Part shown: piece after piece, positions 11,121 through 62,798 of the stretch
Numbering within the stretch: position 1 is the first letter of the stretch
Layout of the letters: the number at the start of each line of letters is the position of its first letter
Assembly (NCBI RefSeq): GCF_025151385.1
Contig: NZ_CP102287.1
Coordinates: forward strand, 1,240,001 to 1,304,000
DNA length: 64,000 bases
From: Hoylesella buccalis ATCC 35310
Lineage (GTDB): Bacteria; Bacteroidota; Bacteroidia; Bacteroidales; Bacteroidaceae
Reading direction: 5' to 3'
The notes under the pieces: generated by a model
What the model saw: only the letters and a program-made list of their open reading frames with translations
The model's database searches: none
What the model was told of the DNA's origin: nothing
Made by a program: the position numbers and the translations under genes

Positions 11121-11186
11121 CTTTGCCCGCCAAACTCAATGACATTGATGCCCAATATCAATGACTTTGGAGGGCAAAGTCAATGC
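11121..11186. repeat. 22-bp degenerate tandem array, locus 1 (three units)
   Basis: Three consecutive 22-bp units at 11121-11142, 11143-11164 and 11165-11186. They begin CTTTGC, CATTGA and CTTTGG and carry CCAAACTCAATGA, CCAATATCAATGA and GCAAAGTCAATGC at the same offset. A partial unit precedes (ends GGGCATTGA at 11120). It lies between the nfeD promoter and the terminator of the M48 gene and matches five other arrays in the window. Confidence 0.75.
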
Positions 11187-11311
11187 TTTTTCCACGAAAG
11201 GTATAAACTACTGAAAATCAACATTATACATATTCACGAAATAGATGTCAGAAGGGGCGGACAGATAGTGGGGAACCGATGGCGGACGGATGACCCATCA
11301 GCACAAACAGG

Positions 11312-11351
11312 ACAGGGCCTGGCAGGAACTAACTATCCTACCAGGCCCTGT
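11312..11351 (-). terminator. Probable terminator after the M48 peptidase gene
   Basis: ACAGGGCCTGG at 11312-11322 pairs with CCAGGCCCTGT at 11341-11351, extended inward by AGGA/TCCT, giving a strong GC-rich hairpin 18 bp past the stop codon. The following T run is weak. Confidence 0.6.
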
Positions 11352-11369
11352 GAAAGATGGTCGAAGCGG

Positions 11370-12293
11370 TTACTTCCCCGTGTTCCTGTAAAGGCTAGAG
11401 GCAGAAACCGTCTTTTGTCGGGATGACTGTTTCTTATTAGTCAGCTTCCTGCTCGTCTTTGGAGCAGGGGTTGCTGCGGCACCCGAGCCACCATTATAAT
11501 ATTGTAAAGCTGTGGGCATAAGACGCTGTAAGGCGGCAATGCGCTTGGCATCGGTGGGGTGAGTGCTGAACATGTCGCTCTGGTTGCCCTTGCCACTGGC
11601 CATGCGCTGCCAGAATGGGACGGCCACACGAGGGTCGTAACCAGCCATGGCAGCAAAGATAAGTCCCATGTTGTCGGCCTCCAACTCATGGTCGCGTGAG
11701 TATTTCAGGTTGCGGAATTGCAATCCTTGTTGGGCCACCACCTGTGCAATCTGTGTGGTGGTGTTTCCCACACCCAGCGCACCAAGGGCACCGCCAAGCA
11801 CCTGAACGCCCAGATGATCCCTGATTTGTTTGCTCATCTGCTCGGCACTGTGGCGGGCAACGGCATGCGCTATCTCGTGACCTACAACCACTGCCAGGGA
11901 CGGTTCGTCCTGTGTATAGGGCAGAAGGCCTTCGTACACCACGATTTTACCACCGGGCATACAGAATGCGTTGGCCTGCTTGTCGGCGACAAGGTTGAAC
12001 TCCCAGCTATAGTGCTGCAGCTCTTCGCTCAGTCCATGGCTGCTGAAATAGGTTTCAACGGCACGGGCCAACCGCTGTCCCACGCGCCTCACCATGGCCG
12101 TGTTGGCTGCATTGGACGACTTGGTAGCCGAAGCCATGTACTTGTCATATTCCTGTTTGCTCAAACTAAGCACCTGCTCATCCGAGACCATCAGATTCTG
12201 TTTGCGGCCCGTAATAGGCACAGTGCGCGTCGTTCCACATGCTACGAGCAATGCAGTAGCAAAGGTCAACAATAAAATTTTAGCTTTATTCAT
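11370..12293 (-). CDS. M48-family metallopeptidase, lipoprotein
   Basis: 307 residues. The N-terminus ends in a lipobox (ATALLVACGTT; Cys about residue 19), so it is anchored to the envelope and faces the periplasm. The zinc site is HEIAHAVARH (HExxH) with the third ligand in SRDHELEADNMG. The segment PITGRKQNLMVSDEQ and the FCMPGGKIVVYEGLL stretch are typical of the Loi/BepA-like M48 group, which degrade or help mature outer-membrane proteins. The C-terminal 40 residues are Ala/Lys/Ser-rich and of low complexity. Single gene, followed by a hairpin at 11312-11351. Confidence 0.93.
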   Translation of the reverse strand: MNKAKILLLTFATALLVACGTTRTVPITGRKQNLMVSDEQVLSLSKQEYDKYMASATKSSNAANTAMVRRVGQRLARAVETYFSSHGLSEELQHYSWEFNLVADKQANAFCMPGGKIVVYEGLLPYTQDEPSLAVVVGHEIAHAVARHSAEQMSKQIRDHLGVQVLGGALGALGVGNTTTQIAQVVAQQGLQFRNLKYSRDHELEADNMGLIFAAMAGYDPRVAVPFWQRMASGKGNQSDMFSTHPTDAKRIAALQRLMPTALQYYNGGSGAAATPAPKTSRKLTNKKQSSRQKTVSASSLYRNTGK

Positions 12294-12321
12294 ATCCTTG
12301 ATTTTATAAATTTCAATATTG

Positions 12322-12329
12322 CAAACTTA
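12322..12329 (-). promoter_or_regulatory. Candidate -7 element of the M48 gene
   Basis: Minus strand TAAGTTTG about 29 bp upstream of the ATG. The -33 box is not clear. Confidence 0.4.
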
Positions 12330-12497
12330 CAAAAAAAATTGATATGCACGGACAATAGTTGATTATAATTTGAAATAATGCCGGGAAAGGGAAAGGTGGA
12401 ATTGAACTCAGTTGATGCACTTGGGCTTATGTCAGCTTAAACATAACGGCATAGGGAGTCCTCAATCATGCCAACACAGGGTTGTTGCACCATTGGC

Positions 12498-12824
12498 TTA
12501 TTCAGTCGTGTCTCTATTCATAACAACAATAACTTTCGTAGAACGATAGACTTTAATTGTCTGACTATGATCTATAAATCCTTTTTTGGAAAAACTAAAT
12601 TTTGTGTCTATACCTCGACTTGTTGTAGGTAGCATTATCATATACCTAAATCTTCCTAACGAATCTGTACGCATACGAAAATTCATCAGATCGTCTGAAA
12701 TTAAAACACTATCTAAAGGAACGTTATTATAATCCACCACAAGCCCTTCCAAACTTTGTACACTCTCGCATGAGCATAAAACAGAAGCAAAGGCTATGCT
12801 AATCAATGTATCTTGTATTTTCAT
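12498..12824 (-). CDS. Small lipoprotein with carboxypeptidase-regulatory-like fold
   Basis: 108 residues. A lipoprotein signal (TLISIAFASVLCSCESVQS) is followed by a stretch typical of CarboxypepD_reg-like beta-sandwiches: LEGLVVDYNNVPLDSVLI, TDSLGRFRYMI, and FSKKGFIDH near the end. Such domains are usually found as the N-terminal part of SusC-like receptors or on surface lipoproteins. Here the domain stands alone. Function unknown; it lies downstream of nothing obvious and just after (in transcription) no clear operon partner. Codon use appears more AT-rich than in pyrD next to it. Confidence 0.7.
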   Translation of the reverse strand: MKIQDTLISIAFASVLCSCESVQSLEGLVVDYNNVPLDSVLISDDLMNFRMRTDSLGRFRYMIMLPTTSRGIDTKFSFSKKGFIDHSQTIKVYRSTKVIVVMNRDTTE

Positions 12825-12891
12825 ATAAAATGCTGTTTCAAGATTCCATGCAGATTCAACAGATAAACGGGAAGCACAGGTTTTAGTCGGA

Positions 12892-13803
12892 TTAAACGTT
12901 CAATGCGCCAATGATTTCTGTCACCGAAGCACAACCATGGTCATCAAGCCAACGGTTCACTCCATCTCGAACGTGGATGGTAGCCATGGGATCGACAAAG
13001 TTGGCCGTGCCAATCTGGATGGCCGTGGCACCCGCCATGAAGAATTCGATGGCATCTTTCGCCGTAGAAATCCCTCCAAGTCCAATGACAGGGATGCTGA
13101 CTGCTTTGGCCACTTGCCATACCATGCGCAACGCTACGGGCTTTACAACCGGTCCACTGAGGCCACCTGTGGCAATGCTCAACACGGGTTTGCGCCGCTC
13201 TACATCAATGGCCATGCCCATGAGGGTGTTGATAAGCGAAACGCTGTCGGCTCCTTCGGCCTCACATGCTCGTGCTATTTCAGCCACATCGGTGACATTG
13301 GGCGACAACTTGACAATGAGTGTCTTGTGATAAGTCTGCCGAACTGCTTTGACAACCGCTGCCGCTCCGGCACAAGTTACGCCAAAAGCCATGCCGCCCT
13401 GCTTGACATTAGGACAGGAAATATTGAGCTCGATGGCCGGAATCTTGTCCAGGGCATCGATACGGGCGGCACACTCGGCATAATCATCGGGCGTGTTTCC
13501 GCTGACATTGACAATCATGTGGGTGTCGATATCCTTAATCTTTGGATAGATTTCTGAGCAGAAATAGTCTACACCCTTGTTCTGTAGGCCCACACAGTTG
13601 AGCATGCCATGCGGCGTTTCGGCCATTCGCGGATACTTGTTTCCTTGACGAGGATGGAGTGTTGTACCCTTGACAATGATGCCACCAAGCTGATTCAATG
13701 GTACTAAATCGGCAAATTCGAGTCCATACCCGAAAGTACCCGAAGCGGTTAAGATTGGATTCTTAAACTCAATGTCATTTATTTTTACATTTAGAGCTGC
13801 CAT
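12892..13803 (-). CDS. pyrD: Dihydroorotate dehydrogenase, class 1B catalytic subunit
   Basis: 303 residues. Oxidises dihydroorotate to orotate in pyrimidine synthesis, using FMN and passing electrons to PyrK and NAD+. Motifs seen: [18 protein letters not shown] at the FMN/substrate loop, [31 protein letters not shown] with the catalytic cysteine of class 1 enzymes, [22 protein letters not shown], and the phosphate-binding [20 protein letters not shown]. The Cys (not Ser) base and the adjacent PyrK gene mark class 1B. Its start overlaps the pyrK end by 13 bp, so the two are translated together. Confidence 0.97.
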
Positions 13804-14567
13804 AATAACTTCTTAATATTTAACACTGGACCTTCTGTACAGACGCAGATATGGCCGTCAGTAGTATCTTCCACGCAACAAAGACAGGCTCCCAATCCGC
13901 ACGCCATATCATTCTCTAACGAAACTTCGCATGCTATGTCGTTCTGTTTGGCATAGCGTGCCACCGACATCATCATGGGTTTGGGTCCACAGGTAGCAAT
14001 ACGGTCGAATTGTTCTTCCTTGAGAATGGAATGATTGGTTACATAACCCTTCTCGCCTTCTGAACCATCTTCCGTGGTGAGATACAGGTCACCAAGCTCA
14101 CTAAACATGTCCTTTTCAAGCAATTCATCAGCGGTTCGGGCTCCTAATAAGAACGAAGGGCGCACTCCCATCTCCACCAATCGCTTCCCCAAGAAAAGCA
14201 TAGGAGCGATTCCAACACCACCTCCAACGAGCAAGAAACGCTCATCGGTAGAACGTGGCATGGTAAAACTATTTCCGAGTGGTAACAAACAATTGACCTT
14301 CTCACCAGGTTTCTTTCGTACCAGATGACGGGTTCCTTCACCTATCGCAGCCACAAGCAATAAAATCTCATTGCGTTCGTAATCCACCATGTTAATAGAA
14401 ATGGGCCGACGCAAGTAGGTTGAAGGTGAATCGTCAATATGAACCTGTACGAATTGGCCTGGATGCATCTCGGGCAATGTCGATGAAGCACGCAATCGCA
14501 TGAGCCAATGACGATCACTTAATTGCTCTGTTGCTTGTACAAGGAAATCTTCACAAATCTTTCTCAT
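13791..14567 (-). CDS. pyrK: Dihydroorotate dehydrogenase electron-transfer subunit
   Basis: 258 residues. A ferredoxin-reductase-like FAD domain ([20 protein letters not shown], then [16 protein letters not shown]), an NAD-binding domain ([19 protein letters not shown]), and a C-terminal [2Fe-2S] site with four cysteines in [15 protein letters not shown] and [10 protein letters not shown]. It shuttles electrons from the PyrD flavin to NAD+. First gene of the pyrK-pyrD operon. About 350 bp upstream, between here and the XRE gene, hold only AT-rich sequence and one doubtful small reading frame. Confidence 0.96.
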
Positions 14568-14918
14568 TGAACAATTTCGTTATAATAGTATTAAAATAGG
14601 AAGTCATGGACAAATCTTAAACCGCGACACGCGAGGGTAATGATATTACATATAGACCTCGATTGCCTAAACATAGAATAAGCTCAGCTTTGAATAAACA
14701 CCTATTTAAATTGAATAATCGTGAAACACATTATTATATTAAGTGCAAAGTTAGCACAAATAGAACACACTCACAAATGAAAGAAATAAATAAAAACACC
14801 AATAGCAATAATCATTCAATCTTTTGGAAGATTGAACAAAATAGAAAAGCTTATACTGAGTATGGAATAACAATTAACCAATTGACTGAAATGGTTCTGT
14901 AAATGTTACACGATACGC

Positions 14919-15398
14919 TTATTTTTTAGGCACAAAAGTCTCCCACGTTTGGTCATCATAGAATACTCTTATTTCAGCAATCTTACGCGGATTATTGTCA
15001 ATATATTTCGTATTGTTATTAGTGACTTGTTGAAGTTGATTACGTTGCTCTACAAAACTTAACTGCGGTTGAACTACATTACTCTCTGATGGAGTAGAAG
15101 GAGAGTCATCGAAGTTTAAAACAGATTCAGCAGAAGAAGCCGAAACTGCATGATTATCGATATCACCTGTATATTCATCCATAAACATAGGACCATTGCC
15201 ATACAATAACCAATCTAAATTAATAGTTGGAAATTTCTTCTTGATGGCATCGATATGATTCAATGTTGGTTTTGTACGATCATTAAAAATGCTACTCAAA
15301 GAAGCAGGTGAAATATCCAATGCCTCAGCAAAAGTTTGCTGATTCATGTGCTGAGCATTCATCAATTGTTTTATTCGATCTTTCATTTTATCCGTCAT
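14919..15398 (-). CDS. XRE-family DNA-binding protein
   Basis: 159 residues. The first 70 form a Cro/CI helix-turn-helix: KDRIKQLMNAQHMNQQTFAE, LDISPASLSSIFNDRTKPTL, then KKFPTINLDWLLYGNGPMFM, a frequent Bacteroidales arrangement where the helix-turn-helix ends in DWLLxGxGPM. The remaining 90 residues are Asn/Ser/Gln-rich, probably disordered, ending RKIAEIRVFYDDQTWETFVP. Targets are unknown. It has a good promoter of its own (15442-15472) and faces a large AT-rich gene-free region, which could hold its operators. Confidence 0.88.
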   Translation of the reverse strand: MTDKMKDRIKQLMNAQHMNQQTFAEALDISPASLSSIFNDRTKPTLNHIDAIKKKFPTINLDWLLYGNGPMFMDEYTGDIDNHAVSASSAESVLNFDDSPSTPSESNVVQPQLSFVEQRNQLQQVTNNNTKYIDNNPRKIAEIRVFYDDQTWETFVPKK

Positions 15399-15441
15399 TC
15401 AACTTAAAATAGGCCAAAAAAGGCAATTCTCATTGACTTTA

Positions 15442-15472
15442 CAAAGATAAACAATAAAAATCACAAAACAAA
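15442..15472 (-). promoter_or_regulatory. Promoter of the XRE gene
   Basis: Minus strand TTTG at 15472-15469, 19 bp, then TATCTTTG at 15449-15442: the full Bacteroidetes promoter pattern. The ATG lies 44 bp downstream. Confidence 0.75.
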
Positions 15473-16220
15473 CAAATCTATATCATATTTAGTATTCAAT
15501 AGTTTGAATTTAGTTATTTATATTTATAAAACCGACATTAAAAGAATGTAATACAACAACTTTTCATATAGATACATGAATTACATCCTTAAATATTGAC
15601 TTTGTATAAATGTAGCAAAAAATTATAAAAATCTGGGAATAAATGCATTATCGTTTATCATTCTACTGTATACAGGCTCTATTCCATGAAATTAAGTAGG
15701 AATCAATGGTTATATGTAGAAAACAGAAGAAGAAAAACATTATAATGATTGATTATCAGTAACTTAAAGCAAGTTCTTGCTATTGCATATTTATAATTAT
15801 CAAACATGAAATCTAAATATTTACGTTTTAATATTGTGTTTTTATGTTATGATTTATGTATACGTTCATGAATTTATAGAAAATAGCCGTTTTTAAATTT
15901 GCAATCACAAATCAGAAAGAATGTAATCTTTTATGGTTTGAAATCACAAAAATAGTTAACTGTAAATTTACTGATGGTAGAAAGATGAAAAATCGCCATA
16001 ATTTCAATATTCTGAAACAAGGTACAGGGTGCGCTTAAATTTGCGAATTATGAGCACACTAAAATGCGAAGAACCTTGATTCCATCAGGGTTTAACGGCA
16101 AAAAACATGAAAAATGAAAATTGTATTCTAGACGAAAATAAGCTAAAATGAGGTCTATTTCAGGCAAAAAAGAGCTTTTTAAGCATGCGAAAAACCCTCT
16201 TTAGGTGGAAAAAGCTACCC
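15473..16220. other. AT-rich stretch without recognisable genes
   Basis: About 750 bp of strongly AT-rich sequence with stops in all frames and no convincing start, RNA gene or inverted repeat. It runs from the XRE promoter to the 22-bp array behind holA. It may be a remnant of decayed genes or a regulatory/nucleoid-binding region. Confidence 0.5.
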
Positions 16221-16347
16221 TATTAGCGCCCAATTTGAAGTTATTAGGGACCTATTTGAAATTATTAGAGGCCCATTTGAACTTATGGAAGGCTTTTGAA
16301 GTTTATTTAGGAGGAACCCGTTTGATGTTATTTAGAATCCAAATGGG
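16221..16347. repeat. Degenerate tandem array, locus 2 (five units and a partial)
   Basis: Units at 16221-16242, 16243-16263, 16264-16284, 16285-16304, 16305-16329 and a partial to 16347; lengths 22, 21, 21, 20, 25. Each carries ATTAG or a variant followed by CC(C/T)ATTTGAA-N-TT. It ends 7 bp before the holA stop. Less regular than the other five arrays but with the same unit length. Confidence 0.7.
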
Positions 16348-16354
16348 TATTTTT

Positions 16355-17374
16355 TCAATGCAGAATATAAAAAATAAGCTCCTTCATGAGATCCCCTGTC
16401 GATGTGTAGGGATTGTTGATTCCTTTGCTTTTAGCATCAATTTCTCTAAACTTAGCAATGATCTGCATGGTTTTCTTACCTGAATAATTTTTCATTCCTA
16501 TGATATAATCACGCGCAGCCCACCCTCCTCTTAGATCCAAAAATTGTGCAACAGCATTCTCATTTTTGGTGGGAGCATAATAGGCAATCATCAGATTTTG
16601 GAAATAACTGAAGAGCAAAGGAAGAAAAGAAAATATAGACCCTGCTTTGGGATTATTGTCAAAATATTTGATTATCTGATTGGCTTTAAAAACATCTCGA
16701 TTGACCAAGGCACTTCTCAGTTCGAAAGCATTGAAATCTTTGCTCACGCCAATTTGCTTTTCAATGACCTCAGGCACAACCACTCGATTGTTTTCCGGAA
16801 GCGAAATCAGCAATTTGTCCAGCACAGAAATCATCCGATTCAAATCCGATCCAATATGATCGGCAATCATCGCTGTCGACTTATAATCGATGGTCACGTT
16901 TTTCTGTTTCAGATACGAAGCGATGAAAGAAGGCAGTTCTGACTCTCTCATCTTTTTACTTTCAAAAACTACACCTAAAGCTTCAGATCTTCCAATCAGT
17001 TTTTTTCGTCTGTCGATGGTGCCATTTTTGTGGCAAAGCACTAAGATTGTTGATTTAACAGGGTTTTTCAGATATTTTTCAATCACGTCAGTTCCACGCA
17101 AGTTTTGCGCTTCTTTCACGATGACGACTCGATATTCGGCCATCATTGGATATCCCTTTGCCAGATCTACAATCTGTGCAGCATTGATGTCAGAACCAAA
17201 AACTATGTTTTGATTGAAGTCACGCTCTTCGGGTTGCAGGACGTTTTCGGCGATATAATCCGAAATTTTATCGATAAAATACGACTCCTCACCCATTAAT
17301 ATATAAATAGGTGAAAAATGACGTGCCTGAAGATCACGCATGATAGAATCGTATGTGGGTCCTGTTCGAGCCAT
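16355..17374 (-). CDS. holA: DNA polymerase III subunit delta
   Basis: 339 residues from ATG 17374 (a GTG two codons earlier is possible). HolA opens the sliding clamp within the clamp-loader complex. Seen: DLQARHFSPIYILMGEESYF, typical of the delta N-terminus (PVYLLxGEExxL), then DLAKGYPMMAEYRVVIVKEA, VLCHKNGTIDRRKKLIGR, FIASYLKQKNVTIDYKSTAM, and the C-terminal helical domain (FNAFELRSALVNRDVFKANQ). Length agrees with the family. It is divergent from the PD-(D/E)XK gene, with about 140 bp between. A degenerate tandem repeat abuts its 3' end. Confidence 0.93.
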   Translation of the reverse strand: MARTGPTYDSIMRDLQARHFSPIYILMGEESYFIDKISDYIAENVLQPEERDFNQNIVFGSDINAAQIVDLAKGYPMMAEYRVVIVKEAQNLRGTDVIEKYLKNPVKSTILVLCHKNGTIDRRKKLIGRSEALGVVFESKKMRESELPSFIASYLKQKNVTIDYKSTAMIADHIGSDLNRMISVLDKLLISLPENNRVVVPEVIEKQIGVSKDFNAFELRSALVNRDVFKANQIIKYFDNNPKAGSIFSFLPLLFSYFQNLMIAYYAPTKNENAVAQFLDLRGGWAARDYIIGMKNYSGKKTMQIIAKFREIDAKSKGINNPYTSTGDLMKELIFYILH

Positions 17375-18082: not shown

Positions 18083-18528
18083 TTTACCGATTAAAGTTTA
18101 CACGCATCAATTTTCCATACTTTGATTATCGCCCAAAAACAGCCAACACGCAGCCTAACCACCACGAATGCGCTTTTGGTTTTCTCCTCACTGAATGGCA
18201 TTGCGGAGAAGTTGACCATACTTTCAGGGAACACAGAGAAACATCTGCCAAAGAGAGTACACCGCACGTCATCATGAGGGCAACGGTGTATGGCAGGAAA
18301 GCAATGCGTTTCGTGAAATCTTCAGCCACATTTGTACATCATCATTCCCACCTATTTTGTAAGAAAAACATACATGTAAAACGGTACATAAAAAATGATG
18401 AAATAGAAAAAATTGATAGGCACGGACTCACCTAACATACATCTTTAGAAGCGTCAAGGTCTGTTTTTTAATCTAAAAACACGACCTAAATGCGATAAAA
18501 GGCATCACTTGCGCTGTTATAACCATGC

Positions 18529-18616
18529 CATTGGTGAGCAAAGACTTACATATTGGAAGCCAAAGGCATACCTATTGGCATTCAAAAGCATTGTTATTGA
18601 GCAGCAATACAGGTGA
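18529..18616. repeat. 22-bp degenerate tandem array, locus 3 (four units)
   Basis: Four exact 22-bp units at 18529, 18551, 18573 and 18595. They begin CATTGG, TATTGG, TATTGG and TATTGA, and at positions 11-14 carry CAAA, CAAA, CAAA and CAAT, then mostly G(A/G/C)(C/A)(A/T)T. This is the clearest array. It lies 217 bp before the sialidase -7 element. Confidence 0.8.
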
Positions 18617-21133: not shown

Positions 21134-21346
21134 CTAAGCCATTTCCGCTTGTCTGCCATTGATAGATACCTTATGGCTGGTTCGAGATATTACCACAGCA
21201 TGTGTTACATAGGAAATGATGCTTACATCGTAGAAATCGTATTCAACGCCATCAGAAGGGTTGAAATCATTACTGCCCACCAATGAAGAGAGGTAAAGAA
21301 TACCCTGAAACATGTTCATGGGAATGTAACAAATCTCGAAAAACAT
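21134..21346 (-). CDS. Unrecognised small protein with its own promoter
   Basis: 70 residues from ATG 21346 (MFFEICYIPMNMFQGILYLS onward; a later ATG at 21319 would give 61). I do not recognise the family. The C-terminal part, DFYDVSIISYVTHAVVISRT then SHKVSINGRQ, alternates like beta strands. No signal peptide or membrane segment is evident. The evidence that it is a gene is the perfect promoter just upstream (21381-21411), with the predicted transcript starting about 28 bp before the ATG. It is convergent with the TerB/J-domain gene and stands alone. Confidence 0.55.
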   Translation of the reverse strand: MFFEICYIPMNMFQGILYLSSLVGSNDFNPSDGVEYDFYDVSIISYVTHAVVISRTSHKVSINGRQAEMA

Positions 21347-21380
21347 TTGTTGAGTTGGGTACAAACATAAGTTTTTCGGG

Positions 21381-21411
21381 CAAAGGTAGTACAGCGTCCA
21401 TACCACACAAA
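21381..21411 (-). promoter_or_regulatory. Promoter of the small gene at 21134-21346
   Basis: Minus strand TTTG (21411-21408), exactly 19 bp, then TACCTTTG (21388-21381). A complete match to the Bacteroidetes consensus. Confidence 0.75.
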
Positions 21412-21512
21412 AACAGCTAATGTTGGGGGCATACGTCTATTTTGTCATATTAGCCGTGTATTTTGAGTGATGAAGCCAAGAAACAGCACCCATGACGTGC
21501 AGGGCTTAATAA

Positions 21513-39110: not shown

Positions 39111-39261
39111 TCCTGTTAAATTAAATGACAAAAAAACTGCATTTGGATTTTCATGAAATAGAAAAAACAAGCAAGAAAAACAAGCAAAACAACCGTGTTC
39201 AACACGCTCAACAAGTGCATGCCACCGTTATAGCATTGAGTTAACGCTGTAATATGTATCA

Positions 39262-39349
39262 CTTTGGCAGCCTACAGTCATACTTTTGAAGGACAAAAGC
39301 ATTGCATTTGCACGGAAAAAGGGCTGCTTTTCGACCGAAAAATCAATAA
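39262..39349. repeat. 22-bp degenerate tandem array, locus 4 (four units)
   Basis: Units at 39262, 39284, 39306 and 39328, each exactly 22 bp. They begin CTTTGG, TTTTGA, ATTTGC and TTTTCG and centre on CCTACAGTCAT, ACAAAAGCATT, GAAAAAGGGCT and GAAAAATCAAT. Lies between the porin gene and the permease gene. Confidence 0.75.
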
Positions 39350-41157: not shown

Positions 41158-42207
41158 ATGACAAAATACAAGATACTCTACTACCTGCCTGCCGAATGGG
41201 AGCCGCAAAAAGCCGTGCAATTGACATGGCCACATGCCCATACCGACTGGCAACCCTATTTGCAAGACATTGTTGACACCGAGGTGCAACTGGCAAGGGT
41301 GATTGCAAGATATCAGGAGGTGATCATCGTCACACAAGATGTGGCAGAGACAAAACGTCATTTCACGGCACAGGAATGCCAACGAATCAGGTTCGTAGAA
41401 TGTCCTCTCAACGATACATGGGCTCGCGACCATGGCTTCATCACCTTGCTGCCGAAGGACGGCAAAGCTGCTCCCCAGCTCTTGGATTTCCAATTTAACG
41501 GTTGGGGGAACAAGTTTGAAGCCTCCAAGGACAACCTGATTAACAGGCAACTTGTAGCTCAAAACGCCGTAAAAGGCGAATATGTAGATTATAACGACTT
41601 TGTCTTAGAGGGAGGTTCCATCGAGAGCGACGGCAAGGGAACCATCCTGACCACCAGTCTCTGCTTGCTCGCTCCAAACAGAAACCAACCGCTGACAAAG
41701 CAAGAAATAGAACGAAAGTTGCTCGAAAGATTGCACGCCAACCGCATTTTATGGATAGACTACGGAAAGCTAGTGGGTGATGACACAGATGGACACATAG
41801 ACACAACCGTGCGCTTTGCCCCAAATGACACCTTATTATATATAGGTACCGGTGACGAGGAGGACGTACAATACGACGACTTCAAAAAAATGGAACGACA
41901 GTTGAAAACGTTTCGCACCATAGAAGGCAAGTCCTATCGATTGCTCAAGCTCCCTATACCCCAGCCTATTTACTACGAAGGCGAGCGTCTGCCAGCCACT
42001 TACGCCAACTTCGTTGTCATTAATGGGGCGGTGATAGTTCCAACTTATCAACAAGACGAACTGGACAGGCAAGCACTCGACATCATTGGGACGGCCTTTC
42101 CCCACCGCGACATCATTCCCCTGGATGCTACAACGGTCATCAAGCAACATGGTTCACTGCACTGTCTTACCATGCAACAAATGCAAACTTTGAACTTTGA
42201 ACATTGA
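41158..42207 (+). CDS. aguA: Agmatine deiminase
   Basis: 349 residues. Converts agmatine to N-carbamoylputrescine and ammonia. Family motifs: PAEWEPQKAVQLTWPHAHTD at the start, NDTWARDHGFIT, VLEGGSIESDGKGTILTT, DDTDGHIDTTVRF, TYANFVVINGAVIVPTY and the catalytic cysteine in KQHGSLHCLTMQQ. The Bacteroidetes-style QHGSLHC replaces the GGGxHC of other phyla. Next gene, 96 bp downstream, is the amidohydrolase for the second step, so the pair gives putrescine from agmatine. Confidence 0.95.
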   Translation: MTKYKILYYLPAEWEPQKAVQLTWPHAHTDWQPYLQDIVDTEVQLARVIARYQEVIIVTQDVAETKRHFTAQECQRIRFVECPLNDTWARDHGFITLLPKDGKAAPQLLDFQFNGWGNKFEASKDNLINRQLVAQNAVKGEYVDYNDFVLEGGSIESDGKGTILTTSLCLLAPNRNQPLTKQEIERKLLERLHANRILWIDYGKLVGDDTDGHIDTTVRFAPNDTLLYIGTGDEEDVQYDDFKKMERQLKTFRTIEGKSYRLLKLPIPQPIYYEGERLPATYANFVVINGAVIVPTYQQDELDRQALDIIGTAFPHRDIIPLDATTVIKQHGSLHCLTMQQMQTLNFEH

Positions 42208-42300
42208 ACTTTGAACTTTATGATTGGCAAAGCTGTCAACTTGTGAACATGTAAACTCGTCAACTAAAAAACTAAAAAACTCATAAACTCATAAACTCAA
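42184..42300 (+). repeat. Low-complexity repeats between aguA and aguB
   Basis: Overlapping the aguA end, TTTGAAC-type words repeat four times (42187-42218). Then 10-bp-like words AACTTGTGAACATGT, AACTCGTCAACT, two of ACTAAAAA and two of ACTCATAA run almost to the aguB ATG. This leader may affect translation of aguB or simply be expanded intergenic repeat. Confidence 0.6.
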
Positions 42301-42303
42301 AAA

Positions 42304-43191
42304 ATGAACGAAATAAGAATAGGAATACTACAATTGCGGAACACAAAATGTGTAGACGATAACAAAAAGAAAATAGCCGAGAACATCACCGACTTGGCGC
42401 AGCGTGGCGCACAGCTCATTGTGTTGCAAGAACTGCACAACTCGCTCTACTTTTGTCAGGTGGAGGATGTAAACAACTTCGATTTGGCAGAACCAATCCC
42501 GGGTCCTTCTACAGAGTTCTTCGGCAAGTTGGCTAAAAAATTAGAGGTGGTCATCATCACTTCGCTATTTGAAAAGCGGGCTCCCGGCCTGTATCACAAC
42601 ACAGCAGTGGTGATAGAGAAAGACGGAACTATCGCTGGGAAATACCGCAAGATGCACATACCTGACGACCCTGCTTACTATGAAAAGTTCTATTTCACGC
42701 CTGGCGACTTGGGTTTCCACCCCATCGACACGTCCATCGGTCGCTTAGGTGTACTGGTCTGTTGGGATCAATGGTATCCAGAGGCAGCCCGACTCATGGC
42801 ATTGCAAGGCGCACAACTCCTCATCTACCCCACAGCCATTGGTTACGAAAGTAGCGATGACAAGGATGAGCAACAGCGACAACGCAACGCATGGATGACC
42901 GTTCAGCGTGGGCATGCGGTAGCTAACGGCATTCCCGTCATCACAGTAAACCGAGTTGGACACGAAGACGACCCTTCTGGACAAACCAATGGCATTAACT
43001 TTTGGGGTAGTTCGTTTGTGGCTGGTCCACAAGGAGAGCTGTATTATCAGGCGTGCGATGACGATGAAGAGAGCGTGGTAATAGACATCGACCTCGACCA
43101 TAGCGAACAAGTACGCCGCTGGTGGCCATTCTTGCGTGACCGACGGATTGAGAACTATCAAGACATTGTGAAAAGATACATCGACAAATAG
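42304..43191 (+). CDS. aguB: N-carbamoylputrescine amidohydrolase
   Basis: 295 residues, nitrilase superfamily. Hydrolyses N-carbamoylputrescine to putrescine, CO2 and ammonia. The Glu-Lys-Cys triad is visible: LIVLQELHNSLYF (Glu), GKYRKMHIPDDPAYYEKFYF (Lys) and LGVLVCWDQWYPEAARLMAL (Cys). YPTAIGYES and the late FWGSSFVAGPQGE are typical of AguB. Second gene after aguA; followed by a strong terminator. Confidence 0.96.
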   Translation: MNEIRIGILQLRNTKCVDDNKKKIAENITDLAQRGAQLIVLQELHNSLYFCQVEDVNNFDLAEPIPGPSTEFFGKLAKKLEVVIITSLFEKRAPGLYHNTAVVIEKDGTIAGKYRKMHIPDDPAYYEKFYFTPGDLGFHPIDTSIGRLGVLVCWDQWYPEAARLMALQGAQLLIYPTAIGYESSDDKDEQQRQRNAWMTVQRGHAVANGIPVITVNRVGHEDDPSGQTNGINFWGSSFVAGPQGELYYQACDDDEESVVIDIDLDHSEQVRRWWPFLRDRRIENYQDIVKRYIDK

Positions 43192-51703: not shown

Positions 51704-51794
51704 GTCATACCTAACCGCATGTCATTCAATTGGTTAGCGTGGATTTACCAAATTTTCTTTCTTCCATTTACCCCTTCGGTTTTAAACTCATGGA

Positions 51795-51882
51795 GATTGA
51801 CCACCAAAGTCATTGAGATTGAGTGCCAAACTCATAGAGATTGGCCCCTAAAGTCAATGCTTTTGAAAAGCAAGACTTGAAA
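51795..51882. repeat. 22-bp degenerate tandem array, locus 5 (four units)
   Basis: Units at 51795, 51817, 51839 and 51861, each 22 bp. Three begin GATTG and the last TTTTG. CCAAAGTCATTGA, CCAAACTCATAGA, CTAAAGTCAATGC and GCAAGACTTGAAA occupy the same offset. A partial unit precedes (51781-51794). Lies about 120 bp before the secA -7 element. Confidence 0.75.
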
Positions 51883-52053: not shown

Positions 52054-55386
<3,333 letters not shown>

Positions 55387-55486: not shown

Positions 55487-56281
55487 ATGAACATTCAAAT
55501 CAACAACTTAAAGAAGGCTTTTGGCGAGAAAATTGCCGTTGACATCCCCAACTTCGTGATTCATGATGGGGATATTCTCGGACTGGTAGGTAACAATGGA
55601 GCCGGAAAAACCACGCTGTTCAGACTGCTACTCGACCTGTTGAAGGCCGATGAGGGGCGGGTTTTGCTTAATTTCGGACTTACCAACCCGCATCAGGAGC
55701 CTGCGCCAGAACCCCCAGTGGATGGCACACCGGCTGCTGAAGCATTCACGGTAGACCCTTCCCAATCGGAAGATTGGAAGCAACATACGGGTGCCTACAT
55801 CGACGAGGGATTCCTCATTGACTTTCTGACGCCAGAGGAATACTTTGAATTTATCGCCAAAGTGAATCACATTGACAAGGAACGTCTCTCCACATTCTTG
55901 GCTTCGCTATCCAAATTCATGAATGGCGAGATACTCGGTCAGAAGAAATTGATTCGCGATTTCTCTGCCGGAAACAAGCAAAAAATAGGCATCATCTCCG
56001 CTCTCATCGCACAACCAAAGCTGCTGATTCTTGATGAGCCTTTCAATTTTCTGGATCCTTCGAGCCAAAACTTCTTGAAACGTTTGTTGCTGAATTATCA
56101 ACAAGCAACGGGAGCCACCATCCTCGTGAGCAGTCACAACCTGCAACACACGGTGGAAATATCCAATCGAGTGGCACTGATGGAGAGTGGTTCCATCATC
56201 AAAGACCTGCCCAACATACACGGACAGGCTGAAAAAGAACTGGAAGATTATTTCAATGGGACGCAGGATGCATCCGAATGA
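55487..56281 (+). CDS. ABC transporter ATP-binding protein
   Basis: 264 residues from ATG 55487. Walker A GLVGNNGAGKTTLFRLLLDL and Walker B LLILDEPFNFLDPSSQ are intact; the signature reads RDFSAGNKQKIGIISA, a common Bacteroidetes variant of LSGGQ; the H-loop is VSSHNLQH. An unusual Pro/Glu-rich insert of about 40 residues follows the first beta domain (HQEPAPEPPVDGTPAAEAF). It is probably part of a two-gene exporter, but no permease gene lies in the window: the next gene is comEC on the other strand. A longer frame would overlap secA and its terminator and was rejected. Confidence 0.9.
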   Translation: MNIQINNLKKAFGEKIAVDIPNFVIHDGDILGLVGNNGAGKTTLFRLLLDLLKADEGRVLLNFGLTNPHQEPAPEPPVDGTPAAEAFTVDPSQSEDWKQHTGAYIDEGFLIDFLTPEEYFEFIAKVNHIDKERLSTFLASLSKFMNGEILGQKKLIRDFSAGNKQKIGIISALIAQPKLLILDEPFNFLDPSSQNFLKRLLLNYQQATGATILVSSHNLQHTVEISNRVALMESGSIIKDLPNIHGQAEKELEDYFNGTQDASE

Positions 56282-57842: not shown

Positions 57843-57882
57843 TCATCATCGTCCATCAAATTGATTCGTAGTTGTCTTGAGA

Positions 57883-58593
57883 TTATTCATAATCATCAAT
57901 CACACGATTGGTAAATTCCATCATGGGTTGAGCCACCTTGAATAACTCTGTCATGGGTTCTATCCAGCCATTGCCCTCAAAAAAGTCATCTTCAACCCGA
58001 TGCCAGCAAGCATAATCCTTCATTCGAAGATAGTCAATAAACTCATAATCGGCCGGAAAACCCTTCGGACAAGTCTTCAATCGGCTGATTCCAAAGCCCT
58101 TGTCCGATGCCTGTTCATCACTCCACGAACCCTGAGTGGCATAACCAAAGAAATGAACAAACTTGCCATTCTCCACACATCTTCGCCACTCGTCAATGTT
58201 GCCCATAATCTCATTGCGGCAAGAGGTCAAGATATGGGTGGGCAACCAATAAGCTCCGGCCGACAACAGGCAATGACCTGGCTGCACATGGATGTAGTAA
58301 CCAGCATGTAACGACTTACGACCTTTGGCGCTGATGTATGCACCAAAATGCCTTTTGTAGGGCGATTTGTCGGGCGAGAAACGTGTGTCACGATTAAAAC
58401 GGAAGCACGCTTCCTTGGCTGTTACATGCGATACGTAGGCATCAAACTTAGAGATGGCTGCGATAGCCCGCTCCACTCCCTCCTCAAAATCGTTGCGACA
58501 AGCCAAATATTCGTCTTTATGGGCTTGATACCAGTCACGATTGTTATTCTTGGCAATGCGCTCTAAATATTTTAAAATGCGTTGGATATTCAT
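57883..58593 (-). CDS. DUF2461 family protein
   Basis: 236 residues. The pattern LKYLERIAKNNNRDWYQAHK, CFRFNRDTRFSPDKSPYKRH and FGAYISAKGRKSLHAGYYIH then VQPGHCLLSAGAYWLP is that of DUF2461. Function unknown. It lies on the minus strand between nth and comEC, 45 bp after nth starts its 3' end, so it may be in one transcript with them. Confidence 0.9.
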   Translation of the reverse strand: MNIQRILKYLERIAKNNNRDWYQAHKDEYLACRNDFEEGVERAIAAISKFDAYVSHVTAKEACFRFNRDTRFSPDKSPYKRHFGAYISAKGRKSLHAGYYIHVQPGHCLLSAGAYWLPTHILTSCRNEIMGNIDEWRRCVENGKFVHFFGYATQGSWSDEQASDKGFGISRLKTCPKGFPADYEFIDYLRMKDYACWHRVEDDFFEGNGWIEPMTELFKVAQPMMEFTNRVIDDYE

Positions 58594-58638
58594 ATAATCG
58601 ATGTTTTAAAGATGGAAGATGCAAGTTACAACAATGAT

Positions 58639-59289
58639 TCATGCAAGTTTGGAAGATGTCAATCGCTTAGGACAAATCTGGTCAAACTGGCACTTTTCAC
58701 ACTTGGGACGTTGACTTTGACAAATGTATCTGCCATGCAAAAGCAGCCAATGGTGCGCACTCGACACATCTTCTTCAGGGATGTACTTCATCAATTCAAG
58801 TTCAACTTTCAAGGGAGTGTCGGCCTTCAGCGGCACCAACCCCATGCGATGACTCACTCTGTAGACGTGAGTATCAACCGCAATCTTTGCTTTTCCATAC
58901 CAAACGGCTTGCACTACGTTGGCCGTCTTGCGCCCTACGCCAGGCAATTTCACCAAATCGGCGGTGTTGTCCGGCACTTCTCCGCCGAAATCGCTTACTA
59001 ACATTTGCGCCATCTCCACCAAATGCCGTGATTTGGCATTAGGATAACTCACGCTGCGCACATATTCCAACACCTCTTCGGGCGTAGCTTGTGCCATCGA
59101 CTGTGCGTCAGGATAACGCTGAAACAACGCCGGTGTCACCTGATTGATGCGCTTATCGGTGCATTGTGCGCTTAACAATGTGGCAACCAATAGCTGAAAA
59201 GCCGACCCAAACTCAAGTTCGGTCGTAACGATGGGCGTTGTTTTTCTGAAATAATCGAGAATATATTGATATCTTTCTTTTCGTGTCAT
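58639..59289 (-). CDS. nth: Endonuclease III
   Basis: 216 residues from ATG 59289. A DNA glycosylase/AP-lyase for oxidised pyrimidines. Helix-hairpin-helix with the catalytic lysine: VKLPGVGRKTANVVQAVW; the catalytic aspartate: KIAVDTHVYRVSHRMGL. The C-terminal [4Fe-4S] cluster has four cysteines (YICQSQRPKCEKCQFDQICP). FQLLVATLLSAQCTDKRINQ is the usual N-terminal helix. A longer upstream frame to 59358 would start in the cyd terminator region and is not supported. Confidence 0.97.
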   Translation of the reverse strand: MTRKERYQYILDYFRKTTPIVTTELEFGSAFQLLVATLLSAQCTDKRINQVTPALFQRYPDAQSMAQATPEEVLEYVRSVSYPNAKSRHLVEMAQMLVSDFGGEVPDNTADLVKLPGVGRKTANVVQAVWYGKAKIAVDTHVYRVSHRMGLVPLKADTPLKVELELMKYIPEEDVSSAHHWLLLHGRYICQSQRPKCEKCQFDQICPKRLTSSKLA

Positions 59290-59373
59290 ATCACAAAAAT
59301 ACGAAACATTTCGCAATTCACCAAGCCCTTGAAGCGTTTTCACACACCATGACATCAAGGTTTCTCGATAAAA

Positions 59374-59417
59374 AAAATGTGACTAAACTCAAGTGTCTCA
59401 CCGAATTTAGTCACATT
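59374..59417 (-). terminator. Terminator of the cyd operon
   Basis: AATGTGACTAAA (59374-59385) pairs with TTTAGTCACATT (59406-59417). On the minus strand a run of eight T follows. It ends the cydAB transcript 20 bp past the cydB stop. Confidence 0.85.
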
Positions 59418-59436
59418 CTTTTATAATTAGATAAGC

Positions 59437-60582
59437 TTAATAAGCATCCTCATGTTTAATCTCTTCTTTCGTGATTTTCTTGCTATCCATGGCATGCCAT
59501 ACATAAACTATATAAGCAAGGACGAATGGAATAAAGAGTGAAACAATGGCCATAGTGCGCAATGTAAATTCACTACTACTACTGTTCATGATGGTCAGTG
59601 AACTCTGCAAATCGGCATTAGAAGGATAATAAGCTGTATTGTTCCAACCTGCAATGAGCAACAGAACCAAAACAACTAAGACTACGCCAATACCTGCCGG
59701 CCAAATACCCTTGATATAGGTGTTACTCAATACAGTCTTGACAATGCCGAACAGCAGCAATACCACGCCAACCAGCAACACAATAGCAAGATACCACATG
59801 TCTAACAGGTTGTATAGATACTTCATCGACTCCATAGAAATCACGCCAGTGGCTGGGTCATAGGCGAAACCATCCTTCAACAAGGTTCTAATTAGGAACG
59901 GGAGGAACAGCAACAAGAATGCTCCTGTGTTGTAAATAAGATGCTTACGGCTGCGAGCGCGCAGTGTATCATCGGCCACATTATTAATAATGTAGAGCAA
60001 ACCCAATATGCGAGCCAAGAAGAACACGGCTAAACCCAGCACCACATTCCATACATCCAGCAACGCATCCAAGCCATGACTGTAGTTGGCCCACCTGCTT
60101 ATCACCGGTGCCATACCATTGGTGATGTTAATCTTGTCGACCAAGAAGTTAGAACCGTTGAAGAATGTTGCAACGGCACCACCCAACAAAACAGGACCCA
60201 AAATACCATTGATGACCAAGCACCATTGGAAAGTCTTCACTCCTAAGATGTTTCCCAGTTTGTTTTGAAATTCATAGCTCACTGCCTGAACAACAAACGA
60301 GAAGAGAATAATCATCCACAACCAATAAGCACCACCGAAGCTGGTACTGTAAAACAAAGGAAAAGAAGCGAAGAAAGCACCACCAAAGGTAACCAACGTC
60401 GTGAAAGTGGTTTCCCACTTGCGCCCCGTACTGTTGACAACCATCCTACGCTCATGTTCGGTCTTACCCAGGTTGAACACCAAAGAGTTAGCACCCTGAA
60501 CAAACATCAAGAATACCAGTAAGGCTCCTAACAAAGAAACAAGAAACCACCAGTAATGTTGTAAAAAACTATATGTAATCAT
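59437..60582 (-). CDS. cydB: Cytochrome bd quinol oxidase subunit II
   Basis: 381 residues, about nine membrane helices (YWWFLVSLLGALLVFLMFVQ at the start, FGGAYWLWMIILFSFVVQAV after it). GGAYWLWM, YEFQNKLGN and the WCLVINGILGPVLLGGAVAT stretch are typical of CydB. Second oxidase subunit, with CydA gives a high-affinity quinol oxidase that removes traces of oxygen. It follows cydA by 17 bp and is last in the three-gene operon. Confidence 0.97.
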   Translation of the reverse strand: MITYSFLQHYWWFLVSLLGALLVFLMFVQGANSLVFNLGKTEHERRMVVNSTGRKWETTFTTLVTFGGAFFASFPLFYSTSFGGAYWLWMIILFSFVVQAVSYEFQNKLGNILGVKTFQWCLVINGILGPVLLGGAVATFFNGSNFLVDKINITNGMAPVISRWANYSHGLDALLDVWNVVLGLAVFFLARILGLLYIINNVADDTLRARSRKHLIYNTGAFLLLFLPFLIRTLLKDGFAYDPATGVISMESMKYLYNLLDMWYLAIVLLVGVVLLLFGIVKTVLSNTYIKGIWPAGIGVVLVVLVLLLIAGWNNTAYYPSNADLQSSLTIMNSSSSEFTLRTMAIVSLFIPFVLAYIVYVWHAMDSKKITKEEIKHEDAY

Positions 60583-60599
60583 TGTATTACCTTTCTTAT

Positions 60600-62162
60600 T
60601 TATAATTCAACCTGATTTGACTTTTCACTATTCTCAGGACCTTTCTTAATAGCCTTGCAAAGAATGTTAATCTCAACAGCCAACATGGCGGTGAAGAGAA
60701 TCAAGAATATAAAGAAGGTGACAATAACCGAACTCGGTTTAATGTCAGACACGGCAACCCATGTCGGCAACATATCCTGGATGGTCCACGGCTGACGACC
60801 AAACTCTGCCACTAACCAGCCTGATTGAGAGGCCAGGTAAGCGCATGGCAACAGCACGATGCCCGAAATCAACAACCAGCGATGTTTGATGATGTCTTTC
60901 TTGTAAACGATGAAAAGCGAACAGATAAAGAACAAAATCAACAACATGCCGATGCCAACCATCACTCTGAATGCCCAGAAGTTCACTGGAATGAACGGAA
61001 CAACTTGGTGGGGCGATTTTACATAACCATAACCAAAATAAGGCATGTTGTCTTTCAGAATCTGCTTGGTAGCTTCATCCTTCTTGCCTGAACGATAATC
61101 TTGCAGCGCTGCAATGGCCATCTGGCCGCGCTTCATCTTTTCTTCTACCGAAATAACCTTCGTACCGTCAGGTTTGGTATAACCATTCAGAAGGTCATTC
61201 ACGCCAGGCACATATCCATTGGCGTCTAAGGTTGCCAAGAATGACAAGCCATTAGGCACGGCCATCTTCATCGGTGGCTCTTGCTGGTTCACATAGTCGG
61301 GTTGCTTAAATGGGTTAACAGCTGCAAATACCGTCAATCCCTGGCCCGTTCCACCATTGTAAAGCGCTTCCATCGAAGCCAGTTTCATAGGCTGTACCTT
61401 GCCAACCTGGATAGCTGAGCTGTGTCCGGTAATCAATGTCAATGCCACAGCTGCCAAGCCAAAGATACTACCTATCTTCATACTCTCAATAGCCAACTTG
61501 TGATCACGCTTCTTAAGCAAGTACCAACTACTTACGGCCACAGTAAACACAGCACCGATAATCCATGAAGAGGTCACGGTATGACAGAACTTGTCCACGG
61601 CAAAGGGCGACAAAGCCACGTCCATAAACGAGTTCATCTCAAAGCGCATGGTATCAGGATTAAACTCCTGTCCAACGGGCAACTGCATCCAAGCGTTAGC
61701 TACCAGAATCCACCAAGCAGAGATGGTTGCGCCCAACCCCGTGAGCCAGGTAGAAGCCAGGTGGAAACCAGGAGACACTTTCTTCCATCCAAAGAACATT
61801 ACAGCCACGAAGGTAGCCTCCATGAAGAAAGCAATAATACCCTCGATAGCCAACGGAGCACCGAAGATATCGCCTACAAACCATGAGTAGTTGCTCCAGT
61901 TGGTACCAAATTCGAATTCCAAGATGAGGCCTGTTGCCACACCCATGGCGAAATTAATACCAAACAGCTTTTGCCAAAACCGCGCCGCATCCTTCCAAAA
62001 AGGGTCACGGGTACGATAATAGCGAGTTTCCATAATTCCCATAACGACGGCAAGACCAAGCGTTAATGGAACAAAAAGCCAGTGATAAATGGCTGTTAAA
62101 GCAAATTGGGCACGCGACCAGTCGATCGTTTGTGCCGAAATGTCTAATAACAGATTGTGCAT
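60600..62162 (-). CDS. cydA: Cytochrome bd quinol oxidase subunit I
   Basis: 520 residues. QFALTAIYHWLFVPLTLGLA (haem ligand His), FATNW-like region in LILEFEFGTNWSNYSWFVGD, DKFCHTVTSSWIIGAVF (second His ligand), and the quinol-side loop carrying TGHSSAIQVGKVQPMKLASM. Nine helices end in a short tail. Catalyses quinol oxidation with reduction of O2 to water; useful for an anaerobe that tolerates low oxygen. First oxidase gene after the small DUF4492 gene. Confidence 0.97.
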   Translation of the reverse strand: MHNLLLDISAQTIDWSRAQFALTAIYHWLFVPLTLGLAVVMGIMETRYYRTRDPFWKDAARFWQKLFGINFAMGVATGLILEFEFGTNWSNYSWFVGDIFGAPLAIEGIIAFFMEATFVAVMFFGWKKVSPGFHLASTWLTGLGATISAWWILVANAWMQLPVGQEFNPDTMRFEMNSFMDVALSPFAVDKFCHTVTSSWIIGAVFTVAVSSWYLLKKRDHKLAIESMKIGSIFGLAAVALTLITGHSSAIQVGKVQPMKLASMEALYNGGTGQGLTVFAAVNPFKQPDYVNQQEPPMKMAVPNGLSFLATLDANGYVPGVNDLLNGYTKPDGTKVISVEEKMKRGQMAIAALQDYRSGKKDEATKQILKDNMPYFGYGYVKSPHQVVPFIPVNFWAFRVMVGIGMLLILFFICSLFIVYKKDIIKHRWLLISGIVLLPCAYLASQSGWLVAEFGRQPWTIQDMLPTWVAVSDIKPSSVIVTFFIFLILFTAMLAVEINILCKAIKKGPENSEKSNQVEL

Positions 62163-62174
62163 AATGTAATGTAT

Positions 62175-62399
62175 TTAATGAATGTTTCGTTTAATCATCT
62201 CGGTAGATACGAAATCTGCTTCATCGCCTTTTTGCGAGTTCTGTTTGATGAAATCAGGAAAGAAGAATACTTTCAGAATAGCGAACATGATGAAGAGTTT
62301 AATCAAAATGACAGTCCATAGTGTTTTACCTACGGTCATGTGCTTAAAGCCATCATAGTACAAATCAAAAGCTCGATAAATAAAGCTGTTTTTATTCAT
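62175..62399 (-). CDS. DUF4492 small membrane protein of the cyd operon
   Basis: 74 residues from ATG 62399 (MNKNSFIYRAFDLYYDGFKH, then MTVGKTLWTVILIKLFIMFA). One membrane helix and a charged tail. DUF4492 proteins sit immediately upstream of cydAB in Bacteroidetes and may take the part of CydX. The cydA ATG lies 12 bp beyond its stop. A minus-strand TACCTTTA at about 62428-62421, one base off the -7 consensus, may be the operon promoter. Confidence 0.88.
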   Translation of the reverse strand: MNKNSFIYRAFDLYYDGFKHMTVGKTLWTVILIKLFIMFAILKVFFFPDFIKQNSQKGDEADFVSTEMIKRNIH

Positions 62400-62667
62400 A
62401 GTAAAGTAGTTTTCGGGTGTAAAGGTAATAAAATATATGTAAAGTTGTACTTTTTCGTAAAAAAAATTATTCACAACGTTGGAAGAAACAAATTCAAGCC
62501 GATATGGATACATGATTTTTCTTGACAACGAGCCTTCAAATCCCGGGCGTATTTGCAAGCAACATACTTTTGGCTGGCAAATACGGCAAGCACGAGCCAC
62601 TTTCATACCAAATTGTTACACAAACACTTACACACACATGCACTCCATAACACTTCATCATTTTGGC

Positions 62668-62798
62668 TTTCAGATGCCAACAGCATAGCTTTTAGGCAGC
62701 AATAACAATGCTATTGGCAGTTTATCAGCATGCTTTTAGCCCGTTAAAGCATGCAGATGGCAAGACAAAAGGATGCTTCTGAGCGGACAAAATCAATA
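62668..62798. repeat. 22-bp degenerate tandem array, locus 6 (six units)
   Basis: Units start at 62668, 62690, 62712, 62734, 62755 and 62777; lengths 22, 22, 22, 21, 22, 22. Five of six end in GC after CATA, CAAT, GCAT, GCAT or GGAT. The start is TTTC, TTTT, TATT, TTTT, AGAT or TTCT. It is the longest array, between the cyd promoter region and the coiled-coil gene. Confidence 0.75.

Follow-up and report, generated by a model that had tools for sequence, protein, structure and literature searches.

A 64-kb stretch of the chromosome of Hoylesella buccalis ATCC 35310 (contig NZ_CP102287.1, positions 1,240,001 to 1,304,000; hereafter the window, with positions counted from its first letter) contains five arrays of short palindromes that follow each other at a period of 22 bp. 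These arrays are real, and they are part of a system that extends over the whole 3.31-Mb genome. We propose, at a probability of about 55%, that they are cooperative double-stranded sites for a putative chromosome-organizing protein with shifting specificity.

The 22-bp periodicity reported by the initial annotation of this DNA holds up against resampled intergenic sequence. In the window, five intergenic segments reach the lag-22 threshold, as compared to a mean of 0.01 and a maximum of 1 in 100 Markov resamplings. The annotation had listed six arrays as one family. Five of these do form one family of 22-bp spaced palindromes (Table 1), with best profile E values from 5.6e-21 to 2.6e-5 and lag-22 identities of 0.46–0.61, as compared to about 0.25 across lags 5–44. 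The sixth, at 16221–16347, was matched by neither the R1 profile nor the unit position weight matrix (PWM). It is a real array, but its period and its sequence differ from those of the five-array family.

The repeat, previously described as (T/C)(A/T)TTGG-N4-CAAA-(A/G)(G/T)CAT-N3, is better read in another register, namely as the palindrome CAAWNKCA-W-TGMNWTTG of 17 bp with a linker of 5 bp behind it. In this register both strands show a symmetric profile. CAA, CA, TG, and TTG were set by the seed pattern, which left positions 0, 4–6, 9, 12–14, and 18 free; of these, positions 4, 6, and 9, together with their mirror positions, depart clearly from randomness in the unit profile. The unit finder permitted steps of 20–24 bp with a penalty off 22, and 128 of 128 linkers measured 5 bp. 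We collected 47 distinct arrays from the H. buccalis genome (30 loci chosen as best matches, the others from samples and from a 260-kb stretch), 27 of which contain four units. As a sign of curvature from phased A-tracts, the power at 11 bp would be relevant; it is about 1.8–3.5 times that of the flanks, but lies below the 5.5-bp power in two of three species.

Scans with this motif show how widely the arrays are distributed. The pattern CAAARTCAWTGACTTTG with at most two mismatches has 136 forward and 142 reverse matches genome-wide (largely the same palindromic sites), and its reversed control has none in the 3.31-Mb genome. A profile (A1, R1) built from 26 four-unit arrays gave at least 171 matches on both strands, merged into at least 75 places, with 150 of 2236 candidates scored. 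We counted 19 strict arrays, including 8 two-unit ones, in the window and 20 evenly spaced samples (464 kb); all 42 spacings are exactly 22 bp, and the reversed and the block-shuffled 464 kb each contain no strict array. None of the 19 is mostly genic at a coding fraction of 0.83, and one of 61 units lies in a gene. Likewise, none of the larger set of 47 arrays is mostly genic, and three overlap a predicted gene end by 13–35 bp. By a looser 22-column model, arrays have 3–7 units in H. buccalis, 3–12 in genome G016, and 3–10 in genome G268.

The arrays are conserved between sister species, represented by G207 (97% across the secA region) and G062 (95–96%). Each of the 12 strict arrays found in the 260-kb stretch has a counterpart at its place, in the same register, in at least one of the two; in G062, one of them is longer by a single 22-bp unit. 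Within the arrays, the AA/TT positions (2, 3, 15, and 16) show 0 substitutions in 214 comparisons, and positions C7 and G11 show 2 in 108. The variable arm positions changed in 40 of 321 cases, the linker in 37 of 190 (19.5%), and the flanking intergenic DNA in 319 of 3135 (10.2%). A G207 locus present twice was counted once, and a partial G062 locus was left out; the counts are not independent, since some H. buccalis arrays enter twice, once per sister species. Had the AA/TT sites changed as fast as the flanks, they would carry about 22 changes, a number that we estimate to be roughly halved by the choice of arrays on their match in H. buccalis. Zero in 214 still stands out against the halved expectation, and selection is needed to explain it. 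The comparison therefore indicates that particular bases in the arrays are under purifying selection.

This observation bears on the suggestion, raised in the initial annotation, that the arrays are a slowly diverging repeat family maintained by replication slippage; in this case they would be neutral minisatellites. The tandem layout and the extra unit in G062 would fit slippage, as would the similarity of neighboring units: consecutive units among the 47 arrays are more alike than random pairs (z up to 5.7). From this likeness we conclude that the arrays arose in part by tandem duplication or local conversion. As their main cause, slippage is not supported. The unchanged AA/TT positions largely refute it, and the 12 arrays found in place, the sharing of a 22-bp period by unrelated sequences with few segments at neighboring lags, and a deficit of close pairs (see below) leave it with barely any probability.

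Palindromic units could also act in RNA, as tandem hairpins that terminate or stabilize transcripts. We compared complementarity with column make-up at 16 position pairs, within the palindrome and across the linker, using the 47 arrays. Two pairs are invariant, and the 14 testable ones show no excess of base-pair covariation: z ranges from 0.5 to −2.8, that is, at or below expectation or no more than 0.5 standard deviations above it. Pairs 4–14 and 5–13 are complementary less often than expected (z about −2.8). Since excess complementarity is lacking, what is read seems to be the DNA itself and not a folded RNA. Rfam has no match in the window. Gene context points the same way in H. buccalis, where 44 arrays have both neighbors: 23 lie between tandem, 13 between convergent, and 8 between divergent genes, as compared to about 22, 11.7, and 10.3 expected from placeable base pairs. 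Since these arrays follow intergenic base pairs without an orientation bias, we rejected a role as terminators or promoters. Pooled over three species, arrays lie in 32 convergent gaps versus 18.0 expected, and in 23 divergent gaps versus 31.7, so a 3′-end role may remain. One array of Prevotella vespertina (L068:14109–14254) has its last unit inverted, which by eye creates a long hairpin that resembles a terminator, with a T run behind it. Taken together, the palindromes, this hairpin, and the pooled convergent preference speak for RNA elements, and the complementarity data, the unbiased orientations, and the arrays between divergent genes speak against them; we consider such elements very unlikely.

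The period of 22 bp recurs in other species with other sequences. A sequence-agnostic lag test at 22 Prevotella-type loci around secA found 17 intergenic segments at lag 22, at most one at lags 17–21 and 23–30, and five each at lags 15 and 16. The 17 segments fall in 9 of the 22 loci. Repeats in coding DNA, by contrast, occur mostly at multiples of three. At 23 further SecA loci, of Bacteroidaceae type, we counted 13 segments at lag 22 and no more than four at other lags, and 35 other SecA loci have none at lag 22 in 55.7 kb of intergenic DNA. Locus groups were assigned by title and SecA identity, whereby the Prevotella-type group includes L107 (Porphyromonadaceae) and L081 (Paraprevotella), and L109 (Prevotella) and L131 (Prevotellaceae), with SecA identities of 67 and 61%, were placed among the others. 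Contiguous stretches of 400 kb each contain 61 (G016) and 45 (G268) intergenic lag-22 segments, as compared to at most 8 and 7 at other lags. The consensus sequences, TTACa.tGTAATTTGa.tCAAA in G016 and AAgCAaTGcTTTTa.a.t.tAA in G268, are palindromes unlike that of H. buccalis. At one stretch per genome, 11 of 14 genomes have at least one lag-22 segment; the segments of G003 and G179 count for little, because both genomes are also rich in segments at other lags. Genome G211 contains an array of CCTAT words with a 20-bp period (L054:1837–1946; lag 20 identity 0.76). The earlier statement that unit length appears to be what is kept needs a correction, in that certain bases are also retained within one species.

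A comparison with genome G045, of a more distant species, suggests how such differences may arise. Upstream of secA, G045 carries an array with the same core CTCATGGAG as in H. buccalis, with outer TTA...TAA replacing CAA...TTG. A dimer pattern of the TTA...TAA form occurs at 74 places in G045, as compared to 2 for its reversed control; the corresponding numbers are 3 in H. buccalis, 2 in G062, 5 in G207, 3 in G228, 6 in G153, 4 in G002, and 0 in G182. Conversely, the CAA...TTG form has 292 matches in H. buccalis, 273 in G062, 244 in G207, and 195 in G228, but 7 in G045 versus 8 for the reversed control, which is background. Arrays occupy orthologous places at three of three tested G045 loci (secA and two others, compared with H. 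buccalis and G062). At one of these, L270, only the left flank is common, the right flank being a multi-copy element; at L277, G045, H. buccalis, and G062 all have a degenerate, mixed array. Arrays thus keep their places across a difference in motif, and the change may have gone in either direction. G207, where the CAA...TTG form prevails, has at least one TTA-type array (L274, G207:C34 near 28061) with near-identical letters in G045 C92; this array could be ancestral or acquired. The reversed CAA...TTG pattern is not a clean control, since in some genomes it is itself frequent. This GTT...AAC form is enriched, with 40–71 matches, in G074 (71), G167 (58), G202, G194, and G222, and G006 has 19 such matches beside 77 forward ones. 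Possibly, these species use GTT...AAC palindromes as another version of the motif.

Numerous dispersed intergenic palindromes that are specific to a species, with local similarity between neighboring units, are also what one would expect of a mobile or selfish family spread by an enzyme, such as the repetitive extragenic palindromes (REP) and bacterial interspersed mosaic elements (BIME). Species differences would then reflect replacement by new copies. In one REP superfamily, a GTAG or CGTC tag reportedly stands at one palindrome end (PMC3733652). The H. buccalis profile, YCAAWNKCA-W-TGMNWTTGR, has no GTAG or CGTC tag; many G016 units contain the string CGTC, possibly as a tag, which would favor such a family. 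The REP-associated tyrosine transposase (RAYT, Y1; PF01797) has no match in the H. buccalis genome, as compared to matches in 5 of 14 control genomes, G016, G268, and G045 not having been searched. Nor were shared flanks found: the 94 flanks of the 47 arrays gave 23 matches, and the 20 listed ones stem from two- or three-unit arrays with undetected further units or from one adjacent array pair. Finally, the arrays hold their places in the sister species and, with another motif, in G045, they keep a rigid 22-bp register, and they avoid close pairs. We consider a REP/BIME-like family unlikely, but its probability is not negligible.

Along the chromosome, arrays in close neighborhood are rare. 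After merging places no more than 500 bp apart, none of 75 listed intervals in H. buccalis is shorter than 5 kb, where uniform placement predicts about 8 (P 1e-4), and 24 listed intervals fall at 7.5–15 kb, a number reached by 0 of 20,000 simulations. The exhaustive scan of 260 kb found one interval of 4.9 kb. For this stretch and for G016 and G268, the null model placed arrays into the real intergenic gaps at five thresholds, and arrays that lie mostly in genes (five in G016, five in G268, and one in H. buccalis) were removed beforehand. In the 260 kb, 10 intervals lie at 4.5–13 kb versus 3.2–3.7 expected at four of five thresholds, and 11 versus 4.9 at the lowest. The 400 kb of G016 contain 50 arrays, with 5 intervals shorter than 4 kb versus 15 expected and 38 of 49 at 4.5–13 kb versus about 22.6, a result that holds at every threshold tried; the coefficient of variation is also below the null (0.58 versus 0.84, P 0.001). 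These data firmly establish a deficit of close pairs and many intervals of 5–13 kb, rather than a regular lattice.

Two further explanations address this spacing. The arrays might be topological sites, for example gyrase hotspots similar to BIME-2, that act without a dedicated protein. Their spacing is near the size of topological domains, and the convergent enrichment across the three species would also fit. By contrast, a coordinated, species-specific change in gyrase specificity would not be expected, and the motif of G045 differs; such sites are distinctly unlikely. Alternatively, the arrays could be what remains of transposon ends that had 22-bp sites for a transposase and showed target immunity, as in Tn7; this would explain a minimum spacing. 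The mostly four 22-bp sites per array recall the layout of Tn7 ends, and the close-pair deficit would follow from immunity, but palindromic units, flanks without shared sequence, and conservation in place render this origin highly improbable.

Other known systems provide partial precedents. BrickBuilt, a minisatellite in the form of a miniature inverted-repeat transposable element (MITE) from Porphyromonas gingivalis, comprises 19 elements with a 23-nt unit, AGAYCATARTATCCTCTCRTRTG, and has a leader, a tail, and terminal inverted repeats (PMC4596501). It resembles the arrays in its Bacteroidales host, its tandem unit of similar length, and its dispersed sites; unlike BrickBuilt, the arrays have a different unit and no shared flanks in H. 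buccalis. The 94 flanks likewise led us to reject a MITE with common flanks.

A CRISPR array was rejected because the units are degenerate and the linkers 5 bp, versus near-identical repeats and unique long spacers. Plasmid iterons are tandem sites for a binding protein about 22 bp apart, located at one origin, whereas the H. buccalis arrays are dispersed over at least 75 chromosomal places. Binding sites of structural DNA-binding proteins, such as matS, SlmA or Noc sites, and parS, are single palindromes with stable motifs, in contrast to tandem groups with species-specific motifs. As in an operator array, purifying selection on the arrays is sequence-specific and acts in a fixed helical register. 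We found no description of such arrays in the open-access literature, subscription papers not being covered. In H. buccalis the arrays fit no tested family, since REP/RAYT, BrickBuilt, CRISPR, and RNA elements are each contradicted by a defining feature examined here. A broad reading as dispersed extragenic palindromes would join the arrays to a known kind.

The rigid register, the dyad profile on two strands, the selection on single bases, the free linkers, and the lack of covariation all point to a protein that reads double-stranded DNA. This agrees with the earlier idea of protein sites stacked in helical phase. In the mechanism we propose, an array would serve as a platform of dyad-symmetric sites (mostly four in H. 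buccalis, more in some other species) fixed 22 bp apart, on which copies of one putative DNA-binding protein, probably dimers, would bind next to one another in register, at a distance of about two helical turns. The arrays lie nearly always between genes, avoid close spacing, and are often 5–13 kb apart along the chromosome. The spacing and the weak gene preference suggest a role at the level of the chromosome (as an anchor, a border between domains, or a topological insulator) and not in the control of single genes. The recognition sequence would drift between species, and the arrays would follow in place; a motif difference with the sites in place is the trace expected of changed specificity. 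Gene conversion among arrays could help such a change to spread. We infer the existence of this protein, its dimeric cooperative binding, and its chromosome-level role from these patterns.

Several observations weigh against this proposal. No lag-22 segment was found in G211, G396, or G065 (7 kb only), so the system may not be universal, and the secA gap carries an array in 5 of 25 loci, two of them weak. The outer bases C1 (5 of 52, 9.6%) and G17 (6 of 54, 11.1%) and T10 (9 of 54, 16.7%) do not change clearly more slowly than the flanks. The rule that arrays lie outside genes is not strict: the looser model puts 1 of 16 loci in H. buccalis, 5 of 55 in G016, and 5 of 43 in G268 mostly within predicted genes, and one weak profile match lies in a gene of the window (55839–55885, E 0.007). 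In G268 the deficit below 4 kb appears at four of five thresholds (P 0.006–0.025) with P 0.29 at the lowest, and the excess at 4.5–13 kb at three of five (P 0.008–0.018), the other two giving 0.08 and 0.25. The coefficient of variation exceeds the null in H. buccalis (1.43 versus 0.92) and in G268 (1.31 versus 0.83), because of array-free holes of 80–128 kb. The H. buccalis hole at about 1303–1430 kb largely lacks a counterpart in the compared G062 stretches; that of G268 measures 80 kb. It is also possible that a mobile or gene-conversion mechanism spreads new motifs. As for a partner protein, an operon at 1519–9044 of the window encodes a MukB/SMC-like DUF3584 protein (PF12128; weak JetC hit) and is perhaps Wadjet-related. 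We rejected this SMC-like protein as the partner, since its gene occurs in 4 of 40 genomes including H. buccalis and is absent from G016 and G003, which bear lag-22 arrays.

Table 1. Arrays and anchor gene in the window (R1, profile; PWM, unit position weight matrix)
Feature	Position	Strand	Support
Array, 4 units (17-bp palindrome + 5-bp linkers)	11109..11191	no strand	R1 E 5.6e-21; PWM 4 units, all 22 bp
Degenerate array, 21-bp period, different sequence	16221..16347	no strand	lag 21 identity 0.51
Array, 4 units, diverged words of CAAAAGCAT type	18517..18599	no strand	PWM 4 units at 22 bp; R1 E 3.4e-9
Weak, diverged array	~39228..39349	no strand	R1 E 5.2e-6 for 39230–39310; PWM 2 units only
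Array, 4 units, upstream of secA	51783..51865	no strand	R1 E 1.1e-20
Diverged array between divergent genes	62665..62804	no strand	R1 E 2.6e-5 (62665–62725), 0.47 (62739–62804)
secA, flanking gene, anchor for orthologous loci	52054..55386	+	Pfam SecA domains

All arrays in Table 1 except the one at 39228–39349 are in place in both G062 and G207. The first lies between genes for an NfeD-domain protein and an M48 peptidase, and the degenerate 21-bp array adjoins a gene for the DNA polymerase III delta subunit (holA-like). The array at 39228–39349 overlaps at its start a weak 40-codon gene prediction, and the region is conserved in G207. The array upstream of secA also occurs in G045 with the changed outer bases described above, and that at 62665–62804 is weak, the unit model recognizing two units only. 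Two other repeats were seen in the window: short-period tandem repeats of AACTTTG and AACTCAAA at 42186–42304, which run across the end of one gene into the following gap, and a dispersed repeat at 21227–21435 that also occurs at the ends of several G207 contigs.

An IS3-type insertion sequence (IS) element with an rve integrase sits directly at an array end in both of its full copies in the H. buccalis genome (593782–595281, L016:1518–3017; and 861375–862874). Of three partial matches, two lie 10 bp and about 56 bp from an array (at 462 and 639 kb), and the third, at 1073816, has none of the listed arrays nearby. Of the four matches in G062, the two that were examined bracket a single array, one on each side. 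Three G207 contigs, chosen because arrays lay near contig ends, start with an end of this element followed by an array. The element may target the arrays.

For genome assembly the arrays matter in practice: in these three contigs the array follows the IS end directly or within about 25 bp. Bacteroidaceae are abundant in the gut, and to our knowledge little is known about how their nucleoids are organized. We suggest tentatively, and with the odds somewhat against it, that this family possesses a chromosome-architecture system unlike known ones, with spaced-out platforms of tandem palindromes, a fast-evolving DNA-binding protein that reads them, and hundreds of sites that follow in place. If so, the arrays would be a chromosome-wide element of this bacterial family, and array DNA of the same species could serve as a direct bait for the binder. 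The motif differences between species would offer a natural experiment in the co-evolution of a protein with hundreds of its sites, and the system would parallel, in bacteria, an anchor code that spans the genome and evolves.

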